NCBI RefSeq assembly: GCF_026191185.1
Contig: NZ_JAPHOV010000001.1
Span: 2,227,001-2,291,000 of the forward strand
DNA length: 64,000 bases
Reading direction: 5' to 3'
Source: Legionella sp. PATHC032
GTDB lineage: Bacteria > Pseudomonadota > Gammaproteobacteria > Legionellales > Legionellaceae
Shown piece after piece: positions 46,307-62,926 of the stretch. Made by a program: the position numbers and the translations under genes. The first letter of the stretch is position 1. Each line of letters opens with the position of its first letter. The notes under the pieces were generated by a model, which saw nothing but the letters and a program-made list of their open reading frames with translations, was not told the DNA's origin and did not search any database.

Positions 46307-47239
46307 CTAATTAAGCCAATGTCCCATCGTTCTTTGTAGCAAGCTAACTGAATCCATGAGTTTTTGTTTGGGCATTTTGCGAATATTTAAAAGCTTCCAT
46401 TGTACTGCTGGGAGATATTGAATCTGATCGCTACATGCAAGAGACCACTCAGGCTCGCCCCTTTTAAAAGAGACTAAAAAATCATAATCCTGCTGAGTAA
46501 AATTATCTTTAAGACCCTGAATCATTTTTCCTGGTATTGCTGTTAGCTCTTCCAGGGTAACTGGTTCAGCAGTCATTCCTTTAAATTCACGTTCAAAAAC
46601 TTGAGTTATATCTTTCCATCGTGGATTCATTATTTCTGAAATAGGCCTTTTGTGACTTAAAAGATAAGTAAGAAACCCATTAAAAAGCTCTCGGTCAATC
46701 TTTTGATTTTCTAACAAAACCTTAACATCAAAAAGATCTCTAGGATGCTGGCGATCTAAAGCAGCGCATAATTTACCACCATAGAGATCAGGCAAAGAAA
46801 CGACTTTCATTGACGCAAAACCAAACTCATTTTCCACCGAAGCAACAACATCAAGCTCAACTGGCGGCAAAAGAGTTCCACGCGCAACAGGTGAAACTTC
46901 TATCTTGATTTGGGTCCCCCTATTTAGAGAAGAATGATCTTCAACAATAATTCGCATTTCATCTGGTTTGTTATCTTGCAAAACTGCATTCAAATCTGGA
47001 ATTTTATTAATATTTGCCGCAATACCCGCTAATGCATTACGCACATTGGCTAAAGCAATCTCACGTGGCTCGAGGGGTAAATACGCTAGATCTATATCCA
47101 CAGATAACCTCGGGAAATCTCGCACAAATAAATTAATGGCAGTACCTCCCTTTAAAGCAAAACAAGTTTCCTTTTCGACGAGTGGAATTAAACGAATGAG
47201 CAACAAAACCTGTTTATAATATGGTGACTGTTTATTCAT
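46307..47239 (-). CDS. AbiEii-type nucleotidyltransferase toxin
   Basis: 310 residues. The polymerase-beta-like motif FALKGGTAINLFVRDFPRLSVDIDLAYLP begins near residue 22 (paraphrased: KGGT, then R-S-D-I-D-L). This is the defining pattern of AbiEii toxins, which modify tRNA acceptor ends with nucleotides. It starts 3 nt after the antitoxin stop, so translation is probably coupled. Type IV toxin-antitoxin systems stabilise islands and can abort phage infection. Confidence 0.88.
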   Translation of the reverse strand: MNKQSPYYKQVLLLIRLIPLVEKETCFALKGGTAINLFVRDFPRLSVDIDLAYLPLEPREIALANVRNALAGIAANINKIPDLNAVLQDNKPDEMRIIVEDHSSLNRGTQIKIEVSPVARGTLLPPVELDVVASVENEFGFASMKVVSLPDLYGGKLCAALDRQHPRDLFDVKVLLENQKIDRELFNGFLTYLLSHKRPISEIMNPRWKDITQVFEREFKGMTAEPVTLEELTAIPGKMIQGLKDNFTQQDYDFLVSFKRGEPEWSLACSDQIQYLPAVQWKLLNIRKMPKQKLMDSVSLLQRTMGHWLN

Positions 47240-47242
47240 ATT

Positions 47243-48028
47243 TTAATCGCTACTTATAAATTGTTCTGGAACGGTGATTTGATATTGTTTTTCTAATTTT
47301 CCATCAGGGACTATTTGACGCTTACCTGCACCAAGATTAATTAAGGACTCATTCACCCGTTCAGCCCATGGATGTTTATAGAAATGACCCAAAAATAAAA
47401 AAAGTCGGTTCGTTTGAATAGATCCGCTTCTTTTTAAAATATGTTCTACTTTTCGTGGACTTAAGTTTACCAATCCTTGAAAAAGCTCTGCTGCATGCTC
47501 AAATGACAAAGTGGAAGGTACAGCCTCCAGCACCTCGAATGCGGCTAACTCTTGATTACTTGCTTTTAACTTAATCCCATCTACTTCTATAGTAGTTAAG
47601 TCATTCTCATCCTGAGCATTTAACTTGGATGTTTTAATGATTTCCCAATTTGGTATTAGTTCATCAGAAATAACTAATTCTGGAAAATTTTTAAACCACT
47701 TTGGTAAAATCGTTTTTGCTTGAACGTTTATCCAAATAGAGTCTGGTGCAAACTGTAGGTAATGCGATTTGCCCTGCTGAGCCAAACTGGTTAAACCAGC
47801 AAGATGAATCATGTACCGACTCTGATTCTGAAGACAATAAACTGCATTTTGCCATCTAGGTTTACGCCCTGCACGATAATAAACCCCTACCCCCAATTTT
47901 ACCAACCATTGGCTTTGACAATATTTTCTTGCTAATTGTGGAGTAATTCCATGGCTTGATAACCAAGACTGGAGCAAGATTTCACCTGAGGCAATATTAT
48001 TCAGAAGCCAGTTTATTTTTGATGACAT
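47243..48028 (-). CDS. AbiEi-type antitoxin/repressor
   Basis: 261 residues. The N-terminal winged-helix (LLQSWLSSHGITPQLARKYC, then GVYYRAGRKPRW) is followed by the AbiEi C-terminal domain. AbiEi proteins repress their own promoter by binding inverted repeats and neutralise AbiEii without stable contact. Such a repeat lies just upstream. First gene of the pair. Confidence 0.85.
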   Translation of the reverse strand: MSSKINWLLNNIASGEILLQSWLSSHGITPQLARKYCQSQWLVKLGVGVYYRAGRKPRWQNAVYCLQNQSRYMIHLAGLTSLAQQGKSHYLQFAPDSIWINVQAKTILPKWFKNFPELVISDELIPNWEIIKTSKLNAQDENDLTTIEVDGIKLKASNQELAAFEVLEAVPSTLSFEHAAELFQGLVNLSPRKVEHILKRSGSIQTNRLFLFLGHFYKHPWAERVNESLINLGAGKRQIVPDGKLEKQYQITVPEQFISSD

Positions 48029-48401: not shown

Positions 48402-48449
48402 GGCTTCGAACCAAGGTGTCGGGGGTTCGAGTCCCTCCGAGCGCACCAT
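48402..48449 (+). other. Attachment site: 3' part of tRNA-Arg(TCG)
   Basis: The segment begins in the anticodon arm GGCTTCGAACCAAG (anticodon TCG), runs through the T-arm GGGGGTTCGAGTCCCTC and the acceptor strand CGAGCGC, and ends in ACCA. The 5' side (GAGCATCA) does not pair with the 3' anticodon stem, and there is no D-arm or 5' acceptor, so it is not a gene. A tRNA 3' half next to a tyrosine integrase is a classic att core. Confidence 0.8.
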
Positions 48450-48487
48450 TTAAACCCTTTAAAATCAGGTAGTTAACGGTTGCCTGG

Positions 48488-48500
48488 ATCGAAACGTGCC
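48488..48500 (+). repeat. Arm-type repeat copy 2
   Basis: ATCGAAACGTGCC, between the att core and the integrase stop codon. Confidence 0.45.
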
Positions 48501-48512
48501 GTAAAAACCAAG

Positions 48513-49517
48513 TTACAGTGACGAAAACGTGCCAGAATTTTTTGTAATTCTTTCCGCTGCCACCTTTAAATGGTCACTTGAAAGATGCGCGTAACGTAAC
48601 ACCATTTCATATTCTGACCATCCACCTAATTGCTGTAATTCTTGCAATGAGGTACCATTTTGCACATGCCAACTTGCCCAAGTGTGACGCAAGTCATGCC
48701 AGCGAAAATCTTTGATTCCTGCCCGAATCAACGCTTTTTGCCAAGCATGATTATTACATCGCGTAACAGGCTTACCAAAATAGGTAAATACAAATGTGGG
48801 ATGTAAGCCCACTTGTTTTTCTATAATGACAATTGCCTGAGAGTTTAAAGGAACAGGGATAGCCTTCTTTGTTTTAGATTGATCAGGGTGAATGAGTGCA
48901 TGTTTTCTAATTAAATCCACTTCACTCCACTGCAATTGAGTAACATTAGATTGGCGTAAACCAGTTGCCAAAGTAAAAGCTGCCATATCTTTCAAATGAT
49001 TTGGTAGCTCCTGAATCAATTTATTAGCCTGTCCCCTACTCAACCAACGTATACGTTTATTTTCAACTTTTCTCATTCTGAATAATGGCATGGTGTTTAT
49101 CCACTGCCATTCCTTATGAGCTTTGTTTAAAATAGCACGTATAATTTCCAACATTCGGTTGACCGTCGTTGGAGTAACATTAGTCCGCTCTTTTTCTTGC
49201 GCAATAAATTCAATTAATTCGGCGTTAATTTCATCTAACGTTTTCTGGCCAAGATAAGGGTCCAGAAAGGCCAAATGAAATTTATCCGTAACTAAACTTC
49301 GTTTATGCGCTGATTCCTCTAACCATCGCACAACAGCATCTACCCACGATTTCTGTTGGGGTAATTTGGTATGCTTGTTACTCCATAGATCTTGTAGAAA
49401 ATTATCATGGAATTGTTGCGCTTGTTGTTTTACTTTAGTCCTAGTGCTTCTGCGTATACGCTTGTCACCGAAGGTGACGTCGATCCACCAAAACCCATTT
49501 TTTTTCGTGAGTGCCAT
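48513..49517 (-). CDS. Tyrosine recombinase integrase
   Basis: 334 residues. The C-terminal catalytic residues are all visible: Arg188 (ATGLRQSN), a Lys near 215 (SKTKKAIPVP), His274 and Arg277 (WHDLRHTW), Trp300 and Tyr309 (LRYAHL). AGGAG precedes the ATG, which lies 88 nt inside the excisionase-like gene. Its 3' end points at the tRNA-Arg fragment, so it probably integrates this element there. It may serve the right-hand island rather than the trb element. Confidence 0.93.
   Translation of the reverse strand: MALTKKNGFWWIDVTFGDKRIRRSTRTKVKQQAQQFHDNFLQDLWSNKHTKLPQQKSWVDAVVRWLEESAHKRSLVTDKFHLAFLDPYLGQKTLDEINAELIEFIAQEKERTNVTPTTVNRMLEIIRAILNKAHKEWQWINTMPLFRMRKVENKRIRWLSRGQANKLIQELPNHLKDMAAFTLATGLRQSNVTQLQWSEVDLIRKHALIHPDQSKTKKAIPVPLNSQAIVIIEKQVGLHPTFVFTYFGKPVTRCNNHAWQKALIRAGIKDFRWHDLRHTWASWHVQNGTSLQELQQLGGWSEYEMVLRYAHLSSDHLKVAAERITKNSGTFSSL
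48519..48533 (+). repeat. Arm-type repeat copy 3
   Basis: TGACGAAAACGTGCC, overlapping the last codons of the integrase gene. Confidence 0.45.
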
Positions 49518-49720
49518 TTATTATCTCCTATATCGACACCCCACGATGCATCGCAAGTAGAGTACTTGTTTCGCATATACATCGCAAGATCTTGTTCTAT
49601 AAAACGCCAACCTCGCCCTATCTTTACTCCAGGTAGTTCACCTGATGCAGCCATTCGTCGGATAGTTTCCCTGTGGGCGCCTAGAAACTTTGAAGCCTCT
49701 TCAATATTAAAAGTATTCAT
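49430..49720 (-). CDS. Excisionase-like HTH protein
   Basis: 96 residues from the ATG at 49720, chosen because it overlaps the upstream stop as ATGA. FNIEEASKFLGAHRETIRRM...LPGVKIGRGWRFIEQDL is the MerR-like fold of excisionase-family DNA-binding proteins. It overlaps int by 88 nt, a typical xis-int arrangement. Residues after about 62 are of unknown role. Confidence 0.78.
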   Translation of the reverse strand: MNTFNIEEASKFLGAHRETIRRMAASGELPGVKIGRGWRFIEQDLAMYMRNKYSTCDASWGVDIGDNKWHSRKKMGFGGSTSPSVTSVYAEALGLK

Positions 49721-49968
49721 AAGCAACCCCATTTATAACCCTGGTGCACATATTTATTAGTATTGAGTTCAAGAATTAAATGATAAAGCCTCACAAGATC
49801 CCGTTCGCAATATAGATTAGTTGGCATTAACTCATCGAAATAAATAGAACGTAATTGTCTTATTGAGCAATTTAGTAAAGCAGCAATGTCTTTTAGAGTA
49901 TAGTTAGTTGACTCTAATAGATAATTAATGATGTTCTTACAGATTTGTAGCCTAAAGTTATTTTCCAC
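49717..49968 (-). CDS. Small HTH-type protein upstream of xis-int
   Basis: 83 residues. TLKDIAALLNCSIRQLRSIYF reads as a helix-turn-helix. First gene of the leftward xis-int operon, divergent from the repressor at 50166. No named family recognised. Confidence 0.6.
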   Translation of the reverse strand: MENNFRLQICKNIINYLLESTNYTLKDIAALLNCSIRQLRSIYFDELMPTNLYCERDLVRLYHLILELNTNKYVHQGYKWGCL

Positions 49969-50111
49969 AACGAATACTCCTTTTCAACTTATTCTGTAGA
50001 TAGCTACAGAAAACGCCTAAACATATTTTTTTATCTAAATCGGTTTGTTTATTTGTTACTGTTCATTCAACTTATGTGTATAATAAACGCTAGGTAAACA
50101 ATACACACAAA

Positions 50112-50149
50112 TATAAACGATAACGTTTATAATAAACAATTATGTTTAT
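50112..50149. promoter_or_regulatory. Tandem perfect palindromes (repressor operators)
   Basis: TATAAACG-ATAA-CGTTTATA (50112-50131) and ATAAACA-ATTA-TGTTTAT (50132-50149) lie back to back, ending 16 nt before the repressor ATG. A TATAAT hexamer (50128-50133) straddles their junction. They fit autoregulation by the S24 repressor and possibly control of the divergent xis-int operon. Confidence 0.65.
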
Positions 50150-50165
50150 TTTGCAAGGTATTTAT

Positions 50166-50765
50166 ATGGATATAAAATTAAAAATAGGGTTAAGAATTAA
50201 AGAGTCGCGAAAAAACAAAAAATTCACTGCAGTGCAGTTGGCTGAAGTCACTGGTTTTTCAGCGCAACGAATTAGTAATTGGGAACGAGGAACAAGAACG
50301 CCCAGGTTTAAAGATGCAGAAATACTCGGTAGTGCATTGGGTGTTTCTCCAACATGGTTATTATTTTTAGATATTGACCACAAACCTATGAAGGATCATC
50401 CCTTCCAAACGATCCCTATAATCAATGCCTCATCTAAAATTGAAGGTTACCTCCCAATACCTTCATCAATTCAAGACAACATAACGCATGATGATTTTGC
50501 TTTTATTGTGCACGATAAAAGTATGTCTCCTATTTATAATGCAGGTGACCTAGTTACTTTCTGTAAAGAAAAACAGAACCACTGCGATTTAGTACTGATT
50601 CATATTAACGCTACAGAAGAGAACTTATTTAGAAAAATAAGCTCAGAAGACAATACGTTTATATGCTCACCTATCAATCCGGACTGGCCACAAATTCGAT
50701 TTGAATCAGCATCAATGTTTCAAATAATAGGTTGGGTAAAGAATGGGGCTAAAGTATTTTATTAA
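50166..50765 (+). CDS. XRE/S24 phage-type repressor
   Basis: 199 residues from the second ATG (AAGG upstream). HTH: LRIKESRKNKKFTAVQLAEV...RISNWERGTRTP. The C-terminal S24 domain has Ser119 (HDKSMSP) and Lys157 (ENLFRKISS). It resembles LvrR in plan but is clearly a different protein, so the right island has its own switch. Confidence 0.85.
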   Translation: MDIKLKIGLRIKESRKNKKFTAVQLAEVTGFSAQRISNWERGTRTPRFKDAEILGSALGVSPTWLLFLDIDHKPMKDHPFQTIPIINASSKIEGYLPIPSSIQDNITHDDFAFIVHDKSMSPIYNAGDLVTFCKEKQNHCDLVLIHINATEENLFRKISSEDNTFICSPINPDWPQIRFESASMFQIIGWVKNGAKVFY

Positions 50766-50968
50766 TTAATGAATAAAGAATTTCCTATCTTTACAATCAT
50801 TAAGATCTCATCATTTGAAAACCCCTTTTTCAGAACAAGCTTATTTAAAGATATCCCAAATATATCGGATAATGTAACAAGATTGTGTTCTGTACTGCTT
50901 AAGATTGTATCAATAACCTGAGTCGCAATACGCTCTCCATTAATAACCTGTTCACTTACAATCTTCAT
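50762..50968 (-). CDS. Small protein of unknown function
   Basis: 68 residues, MKIVSEQVINGERIATQVI..., convergent with the repressor and overlapping its stop by 4 nt. AAGGA lies 8 nt before the ATG. The middle (LVTLSDIFGISLNKLVLKKGF) could be a small HTH. Divergent from the 435-residue gene. Confidence 0.5.
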   Translation of the reverse strand: MKIVSEQVINGERIATQVIDTILSSTEHNLVTLSDIFGISLNKLVLKKGFSNDEILMIVKIGNSLFIN

Positions 50969-51128
50969 GATTAAAATCCTTATTACGACAACAACAACGT
51001 ACTTTACTTATTTGACAAGCTTGATTTGATTAGAGCATAATATGTTTGTCATTTATATCACTAAAATCTTTGGCAAATACGCATTTTAATTCAAAATAAA
51101 AAGCAAATTAATTAACAAAAAGACTAAT

Positions 51129-52436
51129 ATGGAATTTTGTAGGAATTTTACTAGAGTTTGTTGGGATGAAATTAGAGAGGAAGTAAAACGCTCTAATCCT
51201 GAGTTTTTTTTCTTAGTTGATGAAATTGCGCCAGGAAAAGATTTCCCACTATATGTTTTTAACTTTGGATATGGTGATTTAATTGGTGATTCTGAAACCT
51301 TTTATATTCCGCACCAAGGAAAGCTTCAAACTCTTAATAATTTTTCATCTCAAGAACCAATTACTAAAGACCTCTTTTATGGATTTCACAGTTGTCCATT
51401 AGGTCTTGTATTAGATAAGTGCTTTGAATGGTACTTAAGAGGTGATTCAGAAAATGAAACGCATCCTGTTTACATAGATAAGAAAGGGGATTTTTTTAAC
51501 ATTGGACATGTAACCCAGATAAAACCACTTAAACGATACTTGCCTAATGGCATACTGTCTGTAAAAGCTGGGGCACAAACCACTCTTGTAATACAAAATA
51601 TTGGATGCAAAAGAAGCCATAATCGTCTTATTCGATCTGGAATTGATTGCACCATCCCCAATTCATACCATGATCACAGTGAATTTTTTAAACGAATTTA
51701 CCAATCTTGCCCTGCTGAAAGTAAATGGAGGGCCTCTATTGTTTACTTCTCTGAAAAATGGATAGATAACATTGTTAATAATCCTGAGTGGATCAATATT
51801 AATAAATATTTCTTTAAGTATTATCTACATTATTATGCTTACACCTACTATGGGGACTATTATCAACATATTTTTAGGGTTGCTTTTGATAAGTCAAATT
51901 TAGAACGAGATTTTTTTATTCAAGATACCGCTAAATATATCTTTGAAATTCTCATAGGTGAAAAATATGGGTTTTCGTTTACCAATACCGATGAGTTCTT
52001 GCCTGCATCATGGATAGGCTACGTTTTAAAAGACATTTATAAGCTAAAAACAGAACCGTCTATATTAATACCTAAAAAACATGTTGAAAAAAATCCAGTA
52101 TATTTTTCGCTTCAACATCCTATTTTTCGACCATATCAAGGGTTGTCCAGAAAAAGAGCGACTCTAATTTCTGAGCTTGAAAATATGAAAATCGTTACAA
52201 ATAAATATAAAGAACTATTTTCCTCTAATCATGAAGAATGGGCTGGTACAATTCTTGAAGAAAAAGCCAAAAAAGCTCAATTTGTTTATTACCATGGGTT
52301 TGAGAATAAAAAAAATTGGCTTTCGGACATTCATCATTTATTAAAAAATGATTCTGGAGTGCATCATTTAAGCAATGACACTTTTTGTCAAGATGCGCCT
52401 TTTTTTAAAGGATGCATCTCAATAAACAGCTTCTAA
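51129..52436 (+). CDS. Unrecognised 435-residue protein beside the borosin operon
   Basis: No family recognised. Soluble, rich in aromatic residues (YLHYYAYTYYGDYYQHIF), with HDHSEFFKRIYQSC and LFYGFHSCPLGLVLDKCFEWYL, and no signal peptide or clear metal motif. Weak ribosome site. It converges with the MFS exporter and overlaps its 3' end by 18 nt. It could be a tailoring enzyme, an immunity or target protein of the peptide, or an unrelated effector. I cannot decide. Confidence 0.6.
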   Translation: MEFCRNFTRVCWDEIREEVKRSNPEFFFLVDEIAPGKDFPLYVFNFGYGDLIGDSETFYIPHQGKLQTLNNFSSQEPITKDLFYGFHSCPLGLVLDKCFEWYLRGDSENETHPVYIDKKGDFFNIGHVTQIKPLKRYLPNGILSVKAGAQTTLVIQNIGCKRSHNRLIRSGIDCTIPNSYHDHSEFFKRIYQSCPAESKWRASIVYFSEKWIDNIVNNPEWININKYFFKYYLHYYAYTYYGDYYQHIFRVAFDKSNLERDFFIQDTAKYIFEILIGEKYGFSFTNTDEFLPASWIGYVLKDIYKLKTEPSILIPKKHVEKNPVYFSLQHPIFRPYQGLSRKRATLISELENMKIVTNKYKELFSSNHEEWAGTILEEKAKKAQFVYYHGFENKKNWLSDIHHLLKNDSGVHHLSNDTFCQDAPFFKGCISINSF

Positions 52437-53624
52437 TCGCTGTGCTCTTTTAGAATTAAATACTAAGAAGGCACTCATGAAACAAAGCAAAGAAGATATT
52501 GTCCAAGCACTTTGGGCATTGAAATAATACATTGCTACTCCTGATATGAGAGGGCCAATCATCATGCCTAATGCATATGCGCTGCGCCACGCCCCTATAC
52601 CTAGGCCACTGTGGTTAGAGCTTCCATATTGATGACATAATGCAACGGAGTACGCCATAAACAACATTTCACCAAGAGTAAATACTAAAAGCGAACAAAA
52701 CATTCCTTGTATTGTAGAAGACAGGCCCATAGCAAACGTTGACACCCCTAATAAAATACAGCCGATACAAGCAACTATATGTTTATTGAATCGCTCAATC
52801 CTTTTTGATAATTTTACTTGAAATAATGCGATTAAAATGGGATCAGTTGCGAAAAAAAATCCAATGATTAAAGAATTTCCTATTGTTTCGTTTAAGTGAA
52901 TGCCTAGTACTGTTTTTTGTATCCCATAAGTTAAACCGATGCAAAATACTGAAAATAACATTGGAATAAGCGAGCTATAGACTGACTCAATTTCTTCTTT
53001 ATTACTGGGTTTTGCGGCCACATCCTGATTACTGATTTCTAATTTTAGAAAAATAACTATTGAAAACAATATCAAAGTAACGCCGACCAAAGTCATTGCT
53101 AATTTAAAATGATTTTGCGCTAAAAGCATTATCAAAACCATTGCCACAATACCACCAGTATTTTCCAGTGCATTTTTATAGGATTGGGCAATCGTTAAAC
53201 TGTGATTGGTATTTTTTGAAATCTGCAAGAAAGATGAGTTACTGCAAGTGATGAACAAGTTGATCCCAAATCCCATTAACAATACAAAGACAACAGATAA
53301 ATGAAAAGAACTCACTTTTGCTAGAATAACAAATGCGACGCCCATGAGTAAGAAACTTGCCCCAATTATACCCTTTGCTTGTGCTTTTCCCGTAACGTAT
53401 CCACCACATATACTGCCCAAAATAGCTCCAATCCCCATTGAAAAGCCTAAGAAGCCTATATTTAATTTATTAAAATTGGTGCTTACACTAAAAAAATACG
53501 CAATATGGTAAGATAGGCCGCCTCCAATAGCCTCTATAAAAGAAAGAGCCAATAATAATTTACAAGTGACTGGTAAATCACTAAAAGAGAACCCTACTTT
53601 AGAAGAGCTGACTGTTGAGCTCAT
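52419..53624 (-). CDS. MFS exporter of the borosin operon
   Basis: 401 residues with about twelve hydrophobic segments, and the MFS-type loop GGYVTGKAQAKGI between TM2 and TM3. GAGGGA precedes the ATG. It follows the methyltransferase gene by 43 nt on the same strand and likely exports the methylated peptide or its product; that substrate is inferred from position. Confidence 0.8.
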   Translation of the reverse strand: MSSTVSSSKVGFSFSDLPVTCKLLLALSFIEAIGGGLSYHIAYFFSVSTNFNKLNIGFLGFSMGIGAILGSICGGYVTGKAQAKGIIGASFLLMGVAFVILAKVSSFHLSVVFVLLMGFGINLFITCSNSSFLQISKNTNHSLTIAQSYKNALENTGGIVAMVLIMLLAQNHFKLAMTLVGVTLILFSIVIFLKLEISNQDVAAKPSNKEEIESVYSSLIPMLFSVFCIGLTYGIQKTVLGIHLNETIGNSLIIGFFFATDPILIALFQVKLSKRIERFNKHIVACIGCILLGVSTFAMGLSSTIQGMFCSLLVFTLGEMLFMAYSVALCHQYGSSNHSGLGIGAWRSAYALGMMIGPLISGVAMYYFNAQSAWTISSLLCFMSAFLVFNSKRAQRLEAVY

Positions 53625-53667
53625 TGTAATCCCTCACATTAAATAAAAATTAGATACATCCACTAAA

Positions 53668-54438
53668 CTATGCCACTTGATTTAATAACCTTAATGCATC
53701 AGAACTCGGCATTCGTTGTATTTTATCGGGAGGAATATACAAAGTAGACAGTGTTGTTAACTCTTGCCTATCAAGTTGCTCTAAATCAAATTCAGATATC
53801 TTTGGATGAGTACCAGGATAAAGAGCGGCTTCGTAAATAACCGCTTTTTTTTCTTTTTTATAGAGTTCGATTAATTTTTTTTTAATAAAATTAAGAGCCT
53901 CAAAATTGATTTTATTTGTTGGTAAACCCAGATTTCCAACCATACCAATCTGGTAAATTACTACATGAGAAGAAGGATCTACTACTTTATCATATAGAAG
54001 ATATTCCGTAGCATCAAAGGATTGGATACCTCCAGATGCGGGATCAAACCTAAGATCGGCATATAAACAATCTTGAGTTGAAATACCAGGGCACACCACT
54101 GTTTTAATGCTATCATCAAGCATAGACAAAGCGAGCAAGCCAGGAGTAGCAAACACACATGGATGACCATATATAACAACACATAATGATCGTACATCTT
54201 CTATCGCGCTATAAATATATTGTGCAATATTATTATAAGCACTTTCTCTTGATTTAGAGTTAAAGTATATTTCATCCAGTGACTCTGATGATTTCGCTAA
54301 TTTACGAATATAGCGCTCTAGCAAGGGTTCATTAACTAAGTAGATTACCTTATCACAAGTAGAAATATATCCTTTTGCTTCTTCTGTAATATGAGCTATT
54401 GTTTTAATTCCAGTACCAACTAACGCTACAACTTTCAC
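53668..54438 (-). CDS. Borosin peptide backbone alpha-N-methyltransferase
   Basis: 256 residues, tetrapyrrole-methylase fold. It starts at a GTG whose TAAGGA site overlaps the precursor stop codon. SAM-loop VGTGI near residue 7, YGHPCVF at 90-96, PGIS and DCLYADLRFDP at 117-133, YQIGMVG at 162-168 and TLYIPP at 232-237 track the fungal omphalotin enzyme OphMA, not cobalamin or siroheme methylases. OphMA catalytic Tyr66, Arg72 and Tyr76 correspond to Tyr58, Arg64 and Tyr68 here with identical spacing. Unlike OphMA it ends without a clasp or core, so it must act in trans, as in Shewanella SonM. Confidence 0.92.
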   Translation of the reverse strand: MKVVALVGTGIKTIAHITEEAKGYISTCDKVIYLVNEPLLERYIRKLAKSSESLDEIYFNSKSRESAYNNIAQYIYSAIEDVRSLCVVIYGHPCVFATPGLLALSMLDDSIKTVVCPGISTQDCLYADLRFDPASGGIQSFDATEYLLYDKVVDPSSHVVIYQIGMVGNLGLPTNKINFEALNFIKKKLIELYKKEKKAVIYEAALYPGTHPKISEFDLEQLDRQELTTLSTLYIPPDKIQRMPSSDALRLLNQVA

Positions 54439-54446
54439 TTAAATCC

Positions 54447-54665
54447 TTATTTGGTCACTGGAAAAACATGGCTCATATCCGGATACGGGATCACATGGCT
54501 CATATCCGAAAAATTCTTTTTATCAGTGATTAACTCCCTGATCTTATGTGTATCTGAGTTTTTATATGATTCAACCAAGCTTTTACTTAAAACCCAATCC
54601 TCTAAAGCCACTGTATCAAGGAGTGGATTTTTCACCAATGCCTCAACTGCATCTAATAATTCCAT
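54447..54665 (-). CDS. Split-borosin precursor peptide
   Basis: 72 residues from ATG 54665, which has GGAGG 4-5 nt upstream; a TTG 21 nt earlier has none. Residues 1-50 (MELLDAVEALVKNPLLDTVA...IRELITDKK) form a small helical leader comparable to the borosin-binding domain of SonA. Residues 54-72 carry DMSHVIPYP and DMSHVFPVTK, two core units with a 9-residue period, rich in residues that borosin enzymes methylate. Its stop is 8 nt from the methyltransferase start. Role is inferred from pairing and architecture. Confidence 0.88.
   Translation of the reverse strand: MELLDAVEALVKNPLLDTVALEDWVLSKSLVESYKNSDTHKIRELITDKKNFSDMSHVIPYPDMSHVFPVTK
54466..54508 (-). repeat. Tandem core-peptide repeat in DNA
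   Basis: The 16-nt word ACATGGCTCATATCCG occurs at 54466-54481 and 54493-54508, exactly 27 nt (nine codons) apart, encoding DMSHV twice. The identity at synonymous positions points to a recent duplication within the core. Confidence 0.85.
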
Positions 54666-54948
54666 AGTCCCTCCAAAATTTGGCAATCAAAATTTTGCAC
54701 TATTTATTTTATAAAAATTTAAATCATTATCCTATCAAAAATCAATCATTATCAAGAAATCTTTTATTTCAAATAACATGTCCGTGCATAGAATATCATT
54801 ACGGATTGACTCATATTATTCCACAAATGTATGTTTTTTTGAACACAAATTATTTTGCGCTTGCCTCAATGTCTACGGTTTTTTTACTTCCTAAATTATT
54901 TAATGTTATCCTCCTCAATCATATGATAATAATCAATAAGGACTCTAT
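54666..54948. promoter_or_regulatory. Divergent region between borosin and ABC operons
   Basis: 283 AT-rich nt. A direct repeat ATCATTATC at 54723-54731 and 54745-54753, 22 nt apart (about two helical turns), lies upstream of the precursor and could bind a regulator. Nothing else stands out. Confidence 0.4.
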
Positions 54949-56715
54949 TTGACGAGTTTACAGATAATATCCCATTTTTTTCCATTTTTTTGGCCGAAAA
55001 ATAATTTTAAAAAAAAGTTTCGGGTCATATTTTCATTATTTTTGGTTTTCACAACACTCGCCTTAAATTTAATTGTACCCATTTTTTTTAAAGATATAGT
55101 AACTGCATTATCCGGTACGATAAGGACATCGAGCATGATGATTATCTCGCTGATCTGCTGTTATGGATTACTCTGGATGCTGGCAAGATGCAGTGAAAAA
55201 ATTCGCGAGATGCTTTCTTTTGTAAACATAAGTACAACAATTGCGGATTATAGTACTCATGTCTTTGCACACCTTCATGCTTTAAATTACAAATTTCATC
55301 TGGATAAGGAAACCGGAAAAATAACCAGCGCTATCAGTCGCGCACAGCTTGCAATCGCGATGCTTATCTCGAACATATTGTTTCGGATTGTGCCTGTTTT
55401 TTTAGAAATTCTCTTCGCTTTTTTAATCATTTGGCACTTCTATGGCTTAAGCTATGGCCTCTATCTAATTATTATTTTGGGAATCTATCTTGTTTTTAAT
55501 GGACTCACTCAAAAAAAATCCACAGTCCTGCAAAAAAATTGTAGCATTGCTGAATTAAATGTAAGTTCCGCAATTACCGACAGCCTACTCAACACAGAAA
55601 CTGTAAAATACTACAACAGTCAAACCGTAGAACATAAAAAAATAGACCAATTTTTACAAGAAAGCGTTCATGCAAATACAGCATTATTTAGTGGAAACGG
55701 TACATTTTTGGTGATACAAACACTCATTATTGCGGGGGGTCTTGCCTTTTTGTCCTATAAAGTAGGGTACCAAATTTTAATTGGACAGTTAAAAATTGGT
55801 GACTTTGTCCTGATTAATGGCTATTTATTACAGTTATTTGAACCTTTAAGCGAAGCTAGTGTGCGTTGGCGAGATACCAAAAATGATTTATCCAAAATAG
55901 AATATTCAGCCTATTTATTAGATCAAACCGATGAAGTTGAACAAGACCATCCTGATGCAAAACCTTTATTCATTACCGGCCCGCATGTTCACTTTAAAAA
56001 CGTCACTTTCGGTTACCAACCAGAACACCCCATTTTAAAAAATGTAAGCTTCGAAGTTCCACCCGCAAAGATGACAGCTATTGTGGGACCCAGCGGATCG
56101 GGTAAATCAACGATTGCACGATTATTGCTGGGATTATTTGAAGTCACTCAGGGACAAATACTCATAGATGACCAGGATATTACTGCTGTGAGCAAGCATT
56201 CATTACGCCAACAAATCGGAATTGTTCCACAAGAAGTTCTACTCTTCAACAATACGTTGAGGTTTAATCTCTGCTACGGTGCTCTAAATATCTCCGAGCG
56301 TGAAATCAATAACGTAATCCAACTGGCGCACTTGGAAGAGATGGTAAAAAACCTCCCCAAAGGAATTGAAACCAACATCGGTGAAGGGGGTTTTAAATTA
56401 TCAGGAGGAGAACGCCAGAGGATTGGAATAGCAAGATGTTTATTACGCAACCCGAGTATTTTGTTATTTGATGAAGCAACCGCATCGCTCGACACGCAGA
56501 CTGAAAAAAATATCCAGGAAAATATTGAGGAAGTTACAAAACATACCACCAGTATAGTCATTGCACATCGTTTGAGTACGATTATTCATGCTGACAACAT
56601 TCTTGTTTTACAAGACGGAGAAATCGTAGAAGCTGGAACGCATCAAGAATTAATCGAGAAAAAGGGATTATATTACTCCATGTGGAATAGCCAGCAGCAA
56701 AAGAGTGCATCATGA
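54949..56715 (+). CDS. ABC exporter half-transporter, ATM1/HMT1-like (first of pair)
   Basis: 588 residues from a TTG start (AAGGA 6 nt upstream). The first in-frame ATG would lose the first membrane helix. Six membrane segments, then Walker A VGPSGSGKST, signature LSGGERQRIGIARCLL and Walker B ILLFDEATASLD. The N-terminal region resembles the ATM1/HMT1 family that exports glutathione or metal-thiol conjugates. It overlaps the second ABC gene by 4 nt. Confidence 0.85.
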   Translation: MTSLQIISHFFPFFWPKNNFKKKFRVIFSLFLVFTTLALNLIVPIFFKDIVTALSGTIRTSSMMIISLICCYGLLWMLARCSEKIREMLSFVNISTTIADYSTHVFAHLHALNYKFHLDKETGKITSAISRAQLAIAMLISNILFRIVPVFLEILFAFLIIWHFYGLSYGLYLIIILGIYLVFNGLTQKKSTVLQKNCSIAELNVSSAITDSLLNTETVKYYNSQTVEHKKIDQFLQESVHANTALFSGNGTFLVIQTLIIAGGLAFLSYKVGYQILIGQLKIGDFVLINGYLLQLFEPLSEASVRWRDTKNDLSKIEYSAYLLDQTDEVEQDHPDAKPLFITGPHVHFKNVTFGYQPEHPILKNVSFEVPPAKMTAIVGPSGSGKSTIARLLLGLFEVTQGQILIDDQDITAVSKHSLRQQIGIVPQEVLLFNNTLRFNLCYGALNISEREINNVIQLAHLEEMVKNLPKGIETNIGEGGFKLSGGERQRIGIARCLLRNPSILLFDEATASLDTQTEKNIQENIEEVTKHTTSIVIAHRLSTIIHADNILVLQDGEIVEAGTHQELIEKKGLYYSMWNSQQQKSAS

Positions 56716-58520
56716 TGAATGAAAGTTTACCCAGCATTAAAGAAACTATCTACTATCTTTGGCCTTGCGTTTGGACAAAGAACAGCCTAAGAGGAAAAAT
56801 TCACGTTGTCTTGGCTCTCTTATTTATATTGATTTCCATTGCACTAAATTTGTGTGTCCCCATTTTTTTAAAAGAAGCCATTAATGCACTCTCTGGACAT
56901 GCCCTATTTTTAAACAGCACCCCTTTAGTCATCATTCTGACTTATGCATCGGTTTGGGGTGCATCCAAAGCTTGTATCACCCTCAGTCAAGTAATAGCTT
57001 TTCCTGTAGAATTAGAAGGGGCGAGAAAATTTTGTTTAGAACTTTTTGATCACGTACAAGCGCTTTCCACAAAATTTCATAGAGAACGTAAATCAGGCGA
57101 AATTCTTACAATCATAGAACGTTCACACTCGTCTGCTGTTGATCTTATTGGTCGACCTATTGTGATGATATTGCCGGTTCTTATAGAAATAATTTTTGCT
57201 ATGATTTTTTTGAGCTATTTTTATGATCTTTTTTTTGGATTGGTTCTATTGTTGATGCTGGTTTCTTATATCTTGCTAAGCTATTACACCGCTCAATGGA
57301 TTGTAAAATGCAGAATGAAGCAAAACAATGAAGATGCATCTGCAAACGCCTATCTGGTGGAAAGCCTGTTGCATGCGGATACCGTGAAATATTTTAATAC
57401 CCAACAGGATGAAATCAATACAGCTGCTCAAAAATTACAAGAAAAGGCCTGTGCAGATACTCGAGCATTAAATGCCGATGCAAAAATTCATCTTATGCAA
57501 AATGTCATTGTCGGTATGTGTGTTATTATTATGCTCTTACTTGCTGGCAGCCGAGTCATTGCAGGGAGCATGAATGTCGGAGATTTTGTACTGGTCCATG
57601 GCTATTTATTCATGTTCATGCTGCCATTATCCATGCTAGGCTATCGAATTCGTGTTACCCGAGATGATTTAGCTCGTTTTCAAACCGCGATTCAGTTGCT
57701 GAAAATTCCTATCGATATTCAAGACCAACCCAATGCCAGAACACTTAAGTACAAAGAAGGAAAAATCCAATTTGATCACGTCCATTTTACTTATAATGAA
57801 CATCGAAAAATTCTTGATGACGTTAGCTTTATAGTTGAACCCGGTACCACTACTGCAATCGTTGGATCCTCAGGATCCGGCAAATCCACTCTCGCAAGAT
57901 TAATCTTTCGGCTTTACGATTTGAATTCGGGGAGTATTCAGATTGATGGGCAAAATATTAGCAATATCCAACATGCATCACTCAGAGCAATACTCGGTAT
58001 TGTTCCTCAGGAAACTGCTTTATTCAATGATACCTTAAGAAATAACCTGATATATGGAAATCCGCATGTCACTCATGATGAATTGGCGGATGCAATACAA
58101 GCAGTACATCTTGACAGGTTCGTGGCAAAACTGCCTGATGGGTTAGAAACCAGAGTTGGTGAGCGCGGATTAAAATTGTCTGGTGGCGAAAAACAGCGAG
58201 TGGCCATCGCTAGAATGCTGCTTAAAAAACCTAAAATTTTTATTTTTGATGAAGCAACATCTTCACTGGATATGAAAACAGAGAAAGACATTCAGACCTG
58301 TCTCAAACAGATATCGATCAACACAACAACACTTATTATTGCACATAGACTTTCTACAGTAACGCATGCAGATAATATTCTGGTACTCGCTAAAGGTGTG
58401 ATTATTGAGCAAGGTACCCACAATGAACTACTAAATCAAAATGGTGCCTATGCTCAATTGTGGAAAGCTCAAAGTCAAAATAAAATTGACACAGGGTCTA
58501 TTAATGGCTTTGTTCCTTAG
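56712..58520 (+). CDS. ABC exporter half-transporter, ATM1/HMT1-like (second of pair)
   Basis: 602 residues. Same plan as the preceding gene: membrane domain, Walker A VGSSGSGKST, signature LSGGEKQRVAIARMLL, Walker B IFIFDEATSSLD. Both proteins keep the catalytic Glu and His (IAHRLSTV). They may form a heterodimer. Likely a paralogous duplicate pair. Substrate unknown; export of the neighbouring peptide is possible but unproven. Confidence 0.85.
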   Translation: MMNESLPSIKETIYYLWPCVWTKNSLRGKIHVVLALLFILISIALNLCVPIFLKEAINALSGHALFLNSTPLVIILTYASVWGASKACITLSQVIAFPVELEGARKFCLELFDHVQALSTKFHRERKSGEILTIIERSHSSAVDLIGRPIVMILPVLIEIIFAMIFLSYFYDLFFGLVLLLMLVSYILLSYYTAQWIVKCRMKQNNEDASANAYLVESLLHADTVKYFNTQQDEINTAAQKLQEKACADTRALNADAKIHLMQNVIVGMCVIIMLLLAGSRVIAGSMNVGDFVLVHGYLFMFMLPLSMLGYRIRVTRDDLARFQTAIQLLKIPIDIQDQPNARTLKYKEGKIQFDHVHFTYNEHRKILDDVSFIVEPGTTTAIVGSSGSGKSTLARLIFRLYDLNSGSIQIDGQNISNIQHASLRAILGIVPQETALFNDTLRNNLIYGNPHVTHDELADAIQAVHLDRFVAKLPDGLETRVGERGLKLSGGEKQRVAIARMLLKKPKIFIFDEATSSLDMKTEKDIQTCLKQISINTTTLIIAHRLSTVTHADNILVLAKGVIIEQGTHNELLNQNGAYAQLWKAQSQNKIDTGSINGFVP

Positions 58521-58523
58521 CTC

Positions 58524-58565
58524 ATTATCCTCCGAAAAATACCTCTATATTTTGAGGAGGATAAT
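58524..58565 (+). terminator. Long hairpin after the ABC pair
   Basis: ATTATCCTCC (58524-58533) and GGAGGATAAT (58556-58565) are perfect 10-bp arms. An inner 6-bp AAAATA/TATTTT stem stacks on them through facing GA steps. No T-run follows, so it may be a processing or protection element rather than a classical terminator. Confidence 0.55.
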
Positions 58566-58601
58566 GCTTGGTTATGCTGTGACACCAATGGAGGCGGCAT
58601 T

Positions 58602-59444
58602 ATGAATATAAAACAAAACGACACATCAACCACTCCCCCTATTTTATATGGTACAGCATGGAAAGAAGATGACACAAAACGTTTGGTGCTCCAGGCACTC
58701 AACTCAGGATTTCGAGGGATTGATACTGCCAATCAACGTAGGCATTATTTTGAAGAAGCCGTGGGTGATGCAATTGATCAATTTTTAACAACTAGTCAAA
58801 AAACACGCAGTGATTTATTTCTACAAACAAAATTTACCTCTGTACATGGCCAAGATCATAGAAAACCTTATGATGAATTTGATTCATTGACCAACCAGGT
58901 CAAGCAATCCTTTGCAAGCTCACTAGAACATTTACAGACAGACTACATTGACGCCTATATACTTCATGGCCCTTCACTATCTCATGGAATAATCGATGCA
59001 GATTTAGAAATTTGGCAGGCCATGGAAGAGCTGGTGTGTAGTAGAAAGGTAAAGTTTCTCGGCATTTCTAACGTTAATATGGTACAAGTTGAAGAACTAT
59101 ATAGAAAAGTCTCTATAAAGCCGTCGTTTATACAAAATAGATGTTTCGCCATAACACAATGGGATCAAGACGTTAGGACATTTAGTCAAAAAAACAAGAT
59201 TATCTATCAAGGATTTTCTTTGCTCACTGCGAATCAGCGGTATTTATTAAACCCTCACATGCAATCACTTGCTGTAAAATATGATAAAACCATCCCGCAA
59301 ATTATATTTCGCTTTGCAAACCAAGTGGGGATATTGCCTTTAACCGGCACTACAAATCAACAACACATGGATAATGATTTAAACATATATGACTTTGAGC
59401 TTACACAAGAAGAAATTCAATATATAGAAAATATAGGATTATAA
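58602..59444 (+). CDS. Aldo/keto reductase
   Basis: 280 residues, near the usual size. Catalytic Asp in FRGIDTAN, Tyr about eight residues on (RRHYFEE), Lys in LQTKFT and His in YILHGP. NADPH-dependent carbonyl reduction of an unknown substrate. It follows the hairpin and is 10 nt before the GNAT gene. Confidence 0.85.
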   Translation: MNIKQNDTSTTPPILYGTAWKEDDTKRLVLQALNSGFRGIDTANQRRHYFEEAVGDAIDQFLTTSQKTRSDLFLQTKFTSVHGQDHRKPYDEFDSLTNQVKQSFASSLEHLQTDYIDAYILHGPSLSHGIIDADLEIWQAMEELVCSRKVKFLGISNVNMVQVEELYRKVSIKPSFIQNRCFAITQWDQDVRTFSQKNKIIYQGFSLLTANQRYLLNPHMQSLAVKYDKTIPQIIFRFANQVGILPLTGTTNQQHMDNDLNIYDFELTQEEIQYIENIGL

Positions 59445-59454
59445 GTGAACCAAT

Positions 59455-59955
59455 ATGACCATTAAAATTGAAACACCAAGGATGCTTTTGCGTTTAATTA
59501 AGGATGAGGACTTAGATCAAGTTGCTCAGCTTCATGCAGACCGAGAAGTTAGAAAATTCTTTCCTGATGGAACACAAGATCGCGAGCAGACTAAGCGAAG
59601 AATAAAACAGATTATGAACCTTTATGGAGATAAAGGATTGCCTGGTTTTGTTATATTCAATAAGGTGACTCATGAATTCATTGGACGATGTGGATTTGGG
59701 CCAATTGAAACAGGGGAAATTGAAGTTGGATACCTTATTGTAAGAAAATTTTGGGGTATGGGTTATGCATCTGAAGCACTAGAGGCACTTCTTGAATGGA
59801 GTAAAATAAATATCAATTCTGATTATATTATTGCTTTTGCGCCACTCAAACATAGTGCATCACATCGAGTAATGGAGAAGTGTGGTATGGAATATTATAA
59901 AGATGAACTTGGTCATGGTGTTGAGTGTAAATTTTATCGTTCCAAAAATAAATAA
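59455..59955 (+). CDS. GNAT-family acetyltransferase (RimJ/RimL-like)
   Basis: 166 residues. IETPRMLLRLIKDEDLDQVAQL opening, then IGRCGFGPIETGEIEVGYLI and the acetyl-CoA loop RKFWGMGYASEALEAL, ending HRVMEKCGMEYYKDE. Acceptor unknown. Confidence 0.88.
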   Translation: MTIKIETPRMLLRLIKDEDLDQVAQLHADREVRKFFPDGTQDREQTKRRIKQIMNLYGDKGLPGFVIFNKVTHEFIGRCGFGPIETGEIEVGYLIVRKFWGMGYASEALEALLEWSKININSDYIIAFAPLKHSASHRVMEKCGMEYYKDELGHGVECKFYRSKNK

Positions 59956-59977
59956 TTTATAAAACAGGTCAATTAGC

Positions 59978-60760
59978 ATGACAAAAATTACAACAGATGA
60001 AGCCGCGTTAAAATTAGCTGTACTTATTGATGCTGATAATGCTCGAGCAGTTATTATTGATGGTCTTTTAACTGAGATTGCTGGTTATGGAGATGCTATC
60101 GTAAGGAGAATTTATGGCGATTTCACCTTACCATCTAGCGCACAATGGAAAAAGGTATTGCATAAATACGCTATAAAACCAGTACAGCAGTTTGCTTTTA
60201 CTTCTGGAAAAAATGCAACAGATAGTGCACTTATTATTGATGCTATGGATCTACTTTATACGCATCGTTTTGGTGGTTTTTGTATCGTGTCAAGTGATAG
60301 TGATTTTACAAGTCTTGCTAACCGTATTCGTGAAGAAGGGTTGCAAGTTTTTGGATTTGGAGAAAAAAAAACACCAGAGGCATTTCGTAATGCCTGCAAT
60401 AAATTTATTTTCACTGAAGTACTACGCCCTGTAGCACCACCTGATCAATTAATTAGCCAGTCAAAAAAGAGAAAGCAGCCTGTTAAACAAGCAAAAGCTA
60501 ATGAACCCTCAGCACAAGAATTTCCAAAAGAATTTATTCTAGAAGCATTAAATAACTCATACGATGATACTGGTTGGGCATACATAGGAACATTTGGTGG
60601 CTATTTAACTAAGTTAAAACCAGACTTTGATTCCAGGCTTTATGGTTTCAAAAAGCTGAGTGATTTGGTTAAGGGAAAACCGGAGATTTTTGAAACGGAA
60701 GAACGAGTCAATCCTGGATCGAACACAAAAGTTTTATATTTACGTGGTAGACAAGAATAA
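59978..60760 (+). CDS. NYN-domain/OST-HTH (LOTUS) protein
   Basis: 260 residues. The N-terminal NYN (PIN-like) nuclease domain has acidic motifs LIDADNA, DSALIIDAMDLL and SSDSDFTSLA. A basic linker (QSKKRKQPVKQAKA) leads to a C-terminal LOTUS/OST-HTH domain (FILEALNNSYDDTGWAYIGTF ... LYGFKKLSDLV), which binds RNA. Predicted RNase of the LabA/DUF88 type. Confidence 0.88.
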   Translation: MTKITTDEAALKLAVLIDADNARAVIIDGLLTEIAGYGDAIVRRIYGDFTLPSSAQWKKVLHKYAIKPVQQFAFTSGKNATDSALIIDAMDLLYTHRFGGFCIVSSDSDFTSLANRIREEGLQVFGFGEKKTPEAFRNACNKFIFTEVLRPVAPPDQLISQSKKRKQPVKQAKANEPSAQEFPKEFILEALNNSYDDTGWAYIGTFGGYLTKLKPDFDSRLYGFKKLSDLVKGKPEIFETEERVNPGSNTKVLYLRGRQE

Positions 60761-60774
60761 CGTGGAAATAATTA

Positions 60775-61152
60775 ATGAATCTATTAGAAAAAATTGCAGC
60801 ATTAGAAAATGAAGCTACTGAATTTGGTTTTCAGTGGGAAACGACCGATCAGATTATGACTCAAATCCAAAGTGAGTGTATTGAAGTCGATGAGCATTTA
60901 AAAGCAGGAATTAATGATAACTCATCTGCTTTGCAGGAAGAAATAGGTGACCTATTGCATGCCGTGTTTTCACTGTGTGTATTTTGTAAATTAGATCTCA
61001 AAGATACACTGCAACAAACCGTGGAAAAATTTGAGCGGCGGCTCCGCGCTGTCAAAATGATTGCTCATGAAATGAAACTCATTAATTTGGAAGGACAAAC
61101 TTTTGATGAGTTGATGTCTATCTGGAAACAAGCAAAGAGCAGAGTAGGTTAA
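60775..61152 (+). CDS. MazG-like nucleotide pyrophosphohydrolase
   Basis: 125 residues with the all-alpha NTP pyrophosphohydrolase pattern: ECIEVDEHL, then LQEEIGDLLHAVFSL. It lies 14 nt after the NYN gene. MazG-like enzymes hydrolyse NTPs or alarmones. Shorter than chromosomal MazG (about 260). Confidence 0.78.
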   Translation: MNLLEKIAALENEATEFGFQWETTDQIMTQIQSECIEVDEHLKAGINDNSSALQEEIGDLLHAVFSLCVFCKLDLKDTLQQTVEKFERRLRAVKMIAHEMKLINLEGQTFDELMSIWKQAKSRVG

Positions 61153-61457
61153 CGCTGGGTGAGCATGACTTGTAAATTGGGTAGCCGAAATGTAGATTCA
61201 GCATAAAATCACAAACGCGCAATTGTCCTGCGCTTGATAAAATATTTTCATGCTCGCATAAATTTCCGTACAAAATTAATGAATAAAATCAACCTATAAA
61301 AAGAAGACAGGTCGGGTAACAGGATCGAGTTGCCCCGATCCCGTCCCCTAAGAACCTTACTATTACCCATAAGTCTATAAATTATAAGAAAAACTTTTTC
61401 TTTAATTTAACTCTCTGTTATAAATAAGGGCAGTATTTTGACTGATAATGAGAGCAA
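61153..61457. other. mazG-to-IS gap
   Basis: 305 nt. 61153-61310 is non-coding with nothing recognised. 61311-61348 is intron domain VI and 61356 is the IS left end; a weak transposase promoter may lie in the AT-rich 61380-61450. Confidence 0.5.
61311..61348 (-). ncRNA. Group II intron domain VI
   Basis: Minus-strand GGATCG / CGATCC stem with an 8-nt loop, followed by TGTTACCCGAC, which contains a candidate branch-point A and resembles the usual 3' intron end. Confidence 0.65.
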
Positions 61458-62926
61458 ATGATAAAAGGGAATCAAAATAACTCATCTTCTGGATGGGCAG
61501 AGAGTGAGTTCGGAATAGTTAATTTTGGTGATAAACGATTAAGTAAAAGACTTCTAAAAATAGCAGATAGCTTTGCCAACTCCCCTGAATGTTCAATAAA
61601 TCGAGCATGTGACGATTGGCATCAAAGTAAAGCAGCTTATAGATTTTTTCAAAATGATGCTGTATCGGAAAGAAAAATCCTTGATAGTCATATCACTAAA
61701 ACTATTGAAAGAGCCAAGAACTATCCAACTATTTTAGCCATCCAGGATACGAGTTATATTTCTTATAAAAATCATAAAAAGACTGAAGGATTAGGAATTA
61801 TAGCAGCTAGAGTTCGCTCTAAAACAACTAATTTTCAAACTCATGGATTGGTAATGCATACCACATTTGCAGTAACTACAGAAGGCCTGCCTATAGGATT
61901 ACTGGATCAAAAAATTAGTTCTAGACCGCTTTTAGATGAGACAGTAAAGGAGTTGAAAAAAAGAAGTCATAATATCGCTCTTCCTATAGAGGAAAAAGAA
62001 AGTATGCGTTGGATCGAGTCTCTCGAACACTCTAATAATTATCCGGATTTAAAAAATGCTAAGGTGGTTACTGTTTGTGATAGAGAGGCAGATATTTATG
62101 ATTTATTTGAAGTAGCATCGACAAATCAATGTCCTTTTGTAGTGAGGGCACGTCAAGATAGAACAGTAAATAAGACATCAATTTACTCTAAAAAAAGTGG
62201 TGAAAAATTATGGGATTTGGTGAGTGGTTCGCCTTGTCGGGGGGAAATTCAAGTCACTATTCCTGCTCGAGATAATAAGCCTAAAAGAACAGCAACATTA
62301 GAAGTAAGGTTTGATCATTTTGTGATGAACCCTCCTAAAAATAACGTGAAACGTAAAACCAGAACACTCCCTGATTTAAAACTAAATGCAGTGTATGTCA
62401 TAGAACAATCTCCTCCTCTGGGCGAAGAGCCTATGAATTGGATGTTGTTGACCAACATAGACATTAATAATTTTGAAGAGGCAGTAGAAAAAATACAATG
62501 GTATTGCTTAAGATGGAGGATAGAAATTTTTCACAAAATCTTAAAATCTGGTTTTAAAGTTGAAGAATGCAGGCTCGGTGCAGCCGATAGATTAGTTCGC
62601 TTTCTTACAATAATGAGTGTCATTGCATGGCGAATTTTTTTTATCACACTAGTTGCTAGAGAAAGCCCCGATCTTCCTTGTTCGTTCTTATTGGCTAATG
62701 AGGAATGGAACGTCTTGTATACCAAAATACATCATACAAAACACTATCCTGAAACACCACCCACAATAAAAGAAGCCGTGAAATGGATAGCTCAGCTAGG
62801 CGGCTTTTTAGCCCGTAAAAACGATGGGGAACCTGGTCCTATAACATTGTGGAGAGGATGGAAAAGATTAGTCGACCTTGCGGAAGGTTGGAATCTTGCT
62901 CTTTCTTAGTTATGGGTAATAGTAAG
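61356..62926 (+). mobile_element. IS4-family (IS50 group) insertion sequence, 1,571 bp
   Basis: Terminal inverted repeats CTTACTATTACCCATAA (61356-61372) and TTATGGGTAATAGTAAG (62910-62926) are perfect over 17 bp. The 9-bp sequence CCTAAGAAC flanks both ends (61347-61355 and 62927-62935), a target duplication of the size made by IS50/Tn5. One transposase gene fills it. Confidence 0.95.
61458..62909 (+). CDS. IS4-family Tn5-type transposase
   Basis: 483 residues, about the size of Tn5 transposase. DDE triad Asp97 (AIQDTSY; Tn5 also uses Asp97), Asp208 (TVCDREADIYD) and Glu356. Y349-R352-E356-K363 forms the YREK signature with exact spacing. Stop codon abuts the right terminal repeat. Appears intact. 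Confidence 0.95.
   Translation: MIKGNQNNSSSGWAESEFGIVNFGDKRLSKRLLKIADSFANSPECSINRACDDWHQSKAAYRFFQNDAVSERKILDSHITKTIERAKNYPTILAIQDTSYISYKNHKKTEGLGIIAARVRSKTTNFQTHGLVMHTTFAVTTEGLPIGLLDQKISSRPLLDETVKELKKRSHNIALPIEEKESMRWIESLEHSNNYPDLKNAKVVTVCDREADIYDLFEVASTNQCPFVVRARQDRTVNKTSIYSKKSGEKLWDLVSGSPCRGEIQVTIPARDNKPKRTATLEVRFDHFVMNPPKNNVKRKTRTLPDLKLNAVYVIEQSPPLGEEPMNWMLLTNIDINNFEEAVEKIQWYCLRWRIEIFHKILKSGFKVEECRLGAADRLVRFLTIMSVIAWRIFFITLVARESPDLPCSFLLANEEWNVLYTKIHHTKHYPETPPTIKEAVKWIAQLGGFLARKNDGEPGPITLWRGWKRLVDLAEGWNLALS

Follow-up and report, generated by a model that had tools for sequence, protein, structure and literature searches.

The window analysed here is a 64,000-nucleotide (nt) stretch of Legionella sp. 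PATHC032 (contig NZ_JAPHOV010000001.1, positions 2,227,001 to 2,291,000), and the subject of this work is a putative split-borosin cassette on its minus strand. The first gene of the cassette encodes a precursor of 72 amino acids (aa) (54447-54665, minus strand), as judged by position, ribosome site, conservation and selection; it is followed by the gene of a borosin alpha-N-methyltransferase (53668-54438, minus strand, 256 aa, GTG start), identified by PDB search, profile, residues and tree, and by the gene of an MFS transporter, likely an exporter (52419-53624, minus strand; PF07690, E 6.5e-25). The intergenic gaps are 8 nt (precursor to enzyme) and 43 nt (enzyme to transporter), and a likely ribosome site precedes all three starts. 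For the precursor, the ATG at 54665 behind GGAGGG was preferred over a TTG start giving 79 aa. Its leader (residues 1-53, 54507-54665, minus strand) is predicted to be helical (AlphaFold2 helices at residues 2-12, 18-35 and 39-53, mean predicted local distance difference test score (pLDDT) of 63), and its core consists of two repeats on the same strand, DMSHVIP (residues 54-60, 54486-54506) and DMSHVFP (residues 63-69, 54459-54479), which were delimited from the sequence and by comparison across precursors. An operon of these three genes, a leader with a repeated core and a split architecture had been proposed in the original prediction, a model's reading of the letters alone; all three were borne out, the coordinates included, the enzyme having no fused core and the precursor being encoded by a separate, adjacent gene. 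That prediction had not included the open reading frame (ORF) convergent to the operon (51129-52436, plus strand), which encodes an unnamed conserved protein of 435 aa, referred to below as the partner (family fam1). It is present in 62 of 69 borosin loci and is the most constant companion of the enzyme besides the precursor. The 69 stretches examined hold 70 of the 76 enzyme matches, and the locus counts given here are not counts of independent loci because 69 of these enzymes correspond to 65 distinct sequences. Judged from sequence, the locus is probably a split-borosin cassette carried by a mobile island at a tRNA-Arg gene, and backbone N-methylation of the precursor is predicted from the enzyme family.

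In a one-sequence search of the PDB, the enzyme matched dbOphM (E 9.5e-37), OphMA (1e-35), SonM (3e-34) and MroMA (2e-31), and the best cobalamin enzyme was found at E 0.052. With a profile of 22 sequences, the borosin structures were matched at E 1e-57 to 1e-69 and the cobalamin and siroheme enzymes at 0.012 or worse. The enzyme is thus nearer to OphMA and SonM than to the tetrapyrrole methylases, and it carries the catalytic Tyr/Arg/Tyr: Y58, R64, Y68 and Y90 are invariant across the 22 sequences (window enzyme counted). The alignment with OphMA is gapless over enzyme residues 5-106, so the catalytic residues lie at a constant offset, as had been claimed together with a motif-by-motif match; the offset is 7 or 8 depending on the PDB chain numbering, and the Tyr/Arg/Tyr spacing is that of OphMA. 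A match to Pfam TP_methylase and a weak match to the NCBIfam YabN model (64.8 bits, cut-off 525) would suit a cobalamin, siroheme or YabN-type tetrapyrrole methylase, but every borosin structure ranked far higher by the profile E values given above, and this identity was rejected as scarcely credible. The grouping with cobalamin or siroheme methylases that had been named as the outcome contrary to a borosin assignment was not seen, the profile result being a ranking and not a tree. No relatives of the enzyme were found in phage records.

Of 189 related genomes, the own one counted, 40 contain relatives of the enzyme. A short same-strand ORF (40-110 aa, stop no more than 60 nt from the enzyme start) was found upstream of 64 of 70 enzyme genes, own and near-identical copies included, versus 86 of 544 control genes (other genes of at least 200 aa in the same stretches). 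The six misses are all type-B loci in which the enzyme start was called late by the ORF caller (220-223 aa), and when the limit was widened to 125 nt the ORF was found at all 70 genes. The pooled ratio of nonsynonymous to synonymous changes (pN/pS) over six loci of core type A was 0.29 for the leader, 0.19 for the core and 0.24 for the enzyme; the precursor is under purifying selection and its core is conserved. Identity of whole precursors to the window precursor falls as low as 8-30%, yet the core motif is kept. The diversity of the precursors outside the core would fit a regulatory subunit, with the methyltransferase acting on another protein or on a small molecule, but the retention of the motif at such divergence, the presence of the core in two copies and the close solved kin of the enzyme, all of which are named peptide N-methyltransferases or borosin enzymes, make that explanation very improbable.

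The C-terminal motif of 63 distinct, otherwise variable precursors takes forms such as SDMSHVI, ADMSRVV, SDTTKVV, ADRTTIF, PDSNKIV and ACETHVV and is summarised for the clade as D-x-[ST/N]-x-[VI]-[VIF]. The pattern [DNE].[STN].[VI][VIFAL] was found in the last 32 residues of 50 of the 63, against a mean of 4.3 and a maximum of 12 for shuffled tails (2000 rounds); it was chosen after the sequences had been seen, and a few of the 50 fits lie outside the motif proper. When applied unchanged to 11 new partner-linked loci (nine Legionellaceae, two from other families), it was fitted by six, including both non-Legionellaceae loci (DVSHVF in L132, DANRVF and DANKVF in L133). Among 13 methyltransferases without a nearby partner, one neighbouring ORF fits (44 aa, L169), and its status as a gene is doubted. 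A midpoint-rooted tree was built from 93 enzymes, 80 of which come from partner-type loci (all 69 Legionellaceae stretches, including seven without an intact partner, and the 11 new loci). These 80 formed one clade with a support of 0.93, and the 13 others fell outside it; core types A, C, D, E and F each form one clade on this tree, and type B does not. A motif scan of 810 records of short ORFs near partner genes, in which an ORF close to two partner genes appears twice, gave 11 matches, of which four are the borosin precursors of L132 (twice) and L133 and an ORF of L136; the remaining records look like chance. The L136 ORF (54 aa, with PYSMNKVT) adjoins YcaO-type genes and is a lead only. 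An ORF of 32 aa ending in RTSTSTVFE (L145:4259-4357, plus strand), close to a partner gene, a class I methyltransferase gene and a POT-type gene, may be a precursor or a chance occurrence.

The locus resembles the type IV pair SonM/SonA of Shewanella oneidensis, as described in the accessible part of PMC8429565, in having a separate enzyme of about 260 aa and a precursor of about 75 aa, and in keeping the catalytic residues (Y58/R64/Y68 in the window enzyme, Y58/R67/Y71 in SonM). It differs from that pair in the transporter of MFS or POT type, the conserved partner and the common core motif of its clade, and in gene order: the precursor lies upstream of the enzyme throughout the clade layout, whereas outside the clade, in L165 and L113, a short ORF matching SonA (E 3e-14 and 6e-4, respectively) lies downstream. 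Some whole precursors of type E moreover measure 45-50 aa, which leaves no room for both a 53-aa binding domain and a core. The likeness to SonM/SonA put forward in the original prediction held for the architecture and not for the precursor sequence or the additional conserved partner. The fused fungal OphMA and dbOphMA provide the best structure-sequence match and the same active-site spacing, but the window enzyme has no fused clasp or core and belongs to a bacterial operon. The bacterial split types V-X and 'class 4', as far as the accessible parts of PMC11395268 and PMC11285071 describe them, likewise have a separate enzyme and core, some of them without an identified binding domain; Legionella enzymes may already figure in the papers that define these types (Cho et al., Imani et al.). 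A literature search for 'borosin' with 'Legionella', with partial coverage of subscription journals, found no paper, and absence from print is not claimed.

Several observations count against the borosin-cassette assignment. The precursor profiles gave no match to SonA chains at E up to 10; the leader model is weak, with three predicted helices (pLDDT 63) against the five-helix borosin binding domain of type IV; the core pattern is missed by 13 of the 63 precursors and by five of the 11 new loci, four of these five being near-variants and one (L163) having no motif; no dedicated peptidase was recognised among the scanned proteins of the element, and the S24 domain of the neighbouring repressor is LexA-like.

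For the cassette so assigned, the following route is proposed. The OphMA/SonM-family methyltransferase would N-methylate the backbone of the repeated core in the separate 72-residue precursor, probably at or near two hydrophobic pairs, V58-I59 and V67-F68, by analogy with L63 and I65 of SonA. A peptidase would trim the precursor to one or two short peptides, the product would likely be exported by the MFS transporter, and the 435-residue partner would likely recognise the finished peptide inside the cell. The MFS family of the window (MFS_1) occurs in 38 of the 69 loci, these being all 38 that have core types A, B, C, D or F, and is replaced by a POT-type family in 27 of 30 loci of type E. In L034 (L. 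worsleiensis) the cassette MFS gene is split into two ORFs of 199 and 200 aa. Two ABC transporters (54949-58520) were considered as a part of the cassette and left out of the core set because their family occurs in 9 of the 69 loci (7 of 11 type-A loci).

In searches of the partner against Pfam, NCBIfam, PHROGs, PADLOC and PDB sequences no match passed the cut-off (the best in Pfam was DUF7276, E 0.03), and a Foldseek search against viral models gave nothing at E 0.001 (best 0.23). Its own model is confident and points to a CRP-like N-terminal barrel. All 49 diverse members compared share seven residues (G49, E100, G148, W200, P292, H389 and D408). A cysteine protease (H389-D408-C429) was considered and rejected, C429 being kept in 46 of the 49 only and lying in a predicted strand. 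Across 29 loci the distances of the partner correlate with those of the enzyme (r 0.92, a value reached in none of 5000 permutations). Partner genes were found in 50 of 189 related genomes (own counted) and in 24 of 369 genomes of the class, and of these 24, a borosin-type enzyme was matched at E 1e-15 in five (G000, G065, G242, G265 and G431) and not in the other 19. Two genomes of the same class, G176 and G143, have eight and four partner-family matches, respectively, with no borosin-type enzyme among the matches. The POT-type gene and the partner diverge in all 28 type-E loci scored, and in 8 of 10 type-A loci scored the partner has the repressor behind it, on the same strand.

Partner genes also lie beside other peptide chemistries. 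Plasmids of this species and of other Legionella carry a partner paralogue together with ATP-grasp, ThiS-like, ThiF, YcaO and TfuA genes, a set that is likely a thioamide-type peptide cassette; the paralogue-YcaO/TfuA set is carried by L118 (G000:C2), L119, L120, L126, L130, L. longbeachae and other plasmids, some of them conjugative, with a POT-type transporter near the paralogue in L119, L120, L126 and L130. A figure legend of PMC3218107 lists ycaO and tfu, located next to conjugation genes, as encoding proteins of "unknown function". In three type-D loci an aspartate decarboxylase gene is divergent from the partner and followed by a D-Ala-D-Ala-ligase-like gene, and the divergent neighbour in three others encodes a protein whose TauD match falls short of the curated cut-off. 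The decarboxylase/ligase set beside the partner is likely a beta-alanine peptide cassette. PanD-type decarboxylase and D-Ala-D-Ala-ligase-like genes divergent from the partner were noted in L056, L059, L070 and L127 (the last read by eye), and L127 additionally has genes for a racemase, an MFS protein and an ATP-grasp ligase. Six loci of other families have the partner next to a class I methyltransferase, four of them with a POT-type transporter as well; for these labels two methyltransferases and one POT member were scanned. The L. israelensis plasmid NZ_CP041669.1 carries, at 18209-20280, the gene of a borosin-type enzyme (32% identity) with a partner gene (27%) adjacent and convergent to it.

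Because it stands beside several peptide chemistries and transporters, the partner is read as a common component that encounters the small peptide once it is complete, and an intracellular recogniser, either a sensor or a means of self-protection, is tentatively favoured with somewhat less than even confidence. Weighing against this role, the CRP-like match is limited to the N-terminal part and no DNA-binding domain was recognised; the distance correlation can partly reflect shared descent; seven of the 69 loci have no partner ORF of at least 360 aa in the stretch, two of them at contig ends; and the layout with a divergent transporter was not found in type A, that of the window. A maturation enzyme, for leader removal or another shared tailoring step, is possible and rather doubtful: the seven residues identical in all diverse members would suit catalysis and the scanned proteins of the element include no other recognised peptidase, but the partner also stands beside gene sets (PanD/ligase, ATP-grasp) whose peptides have no visible ribosomal precursor, and most class genomes with the partner are without a borosin enzyme. 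The frequent linkage, the copies without a borosin enzyme and the mobile islands would suit an immunity protein, the peptide being a toxin against related bacteria. Immunity genes often vary along with the toxin, but the core is conserved and not diversifying in the six type-A loci tested, and immunity is considered unlikely.

If the recogniser is shared in this manner, the partner and the MFS or POT transporter may, more speculatively, serve a D-x-[ST/N]-x-[VI]-[VIF] peptide with swappable chemistry, as a new small-peptide system of Legionellales and other Gammaproteobacteria. The swapped chemistries would be backbone N-methylation, YcaO/TfuA thioamidation and ligase-made peptides, and the system, residing on tRNA-Arg islands and plasmids, would be a modular peptide used as signal or weapon and read by one shared intracellular receptor. 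Most knowledge of bacterial borosins concerns enzymes to which no product is assigned; the accessible part of PMC11395268 puts the small number of known mature compounds down to the lack of a specific peptidase. New here are the element at tRNA-Arg, the spread of the enzyme with its upstream ORF, the partner, and a single borosin clade with a nearly fixed gene set and a conserved short core that predicts the product. The fixed gene set, the conserved core and the partner make product and role testable, and the partner, standing beside other peptide chemistries, is a handle for finding an unseen class of small molecules, likely a widespread and unstudied family, in bacteria many of which live in protozoa.

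The cassette is carried by an integrative element of about 12.9 kb (48402-61310), delimited by ends shared with relatives and by a tRNA half at the left. The attachment repeat (48402-48448, plus strand) is the 3' 47 bp of tRNA-Arg(TCG); its four copies lie within 145 kb of the genome, the first being the intact tRNA-Arg. Within the element are a tyrosine integrase (48513-49517, minus strand; PF00589, E 4e-29) and the XRE/S24-type repressor beside the partner gene (50142-50765, plus strand; PF01381 and PF00717; family in 14 of the 69 loci). The left end is common to L029, L031, L032, L033 and L035 and the right end (61310, or 15640 of L030) to L032-L036. Similarity begins at 48402 in L. anisa (L031, 99.99%), Legionella sp. 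PATHC038 (98.8%), G038 (98.9%) and L. maioricensis (94.5%), and in G098, of another genus, in pieces (99.9-100%); over the whole block, identity is 98.8-98.9% for L032/L033 and 94.5% for L035. Similarity stops at 61310 in PATHC038, G038 and L. maioricensis, and the partial matches in L. worsleiensis (97.7%) and L. bozemanae end there too. The position of the right end is less certain because the L. anisa match continues past 61310 to the end of the stretch; no second attachment repeat was found there. The occurrence of the same DNA in named Legionella records, with the element at tRNA-Arg, agrees with the Legionella island proposed earlier. A search for plasmid copies of 48402-58402 gave only a 52-base match.

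A second borosin locus, of core type E (G000:C1:2201830-2202564, L091; core ...HSNKIVSIQ...PDSNKIVNIK), lies outside the window, 1.8 kb behind the intact tRNA-Arg. With the four repeats, this gives two cassettes following a single tRNA site, apparently as a tandem array. In the surroundings of the element, an AbiE-type toxin-antitoxin pair (46307-48028, minus strand; PADLOC AbiEi 8e-75, AbiEii 3e-118) lies just outside the left end, a traJ-II RNA (Rfam RF01760; 42273-42374, minus strand) in the neighbouring stretch, and a Tn5-like transposase gene (61458-62909, plus strand) just right of the element end.

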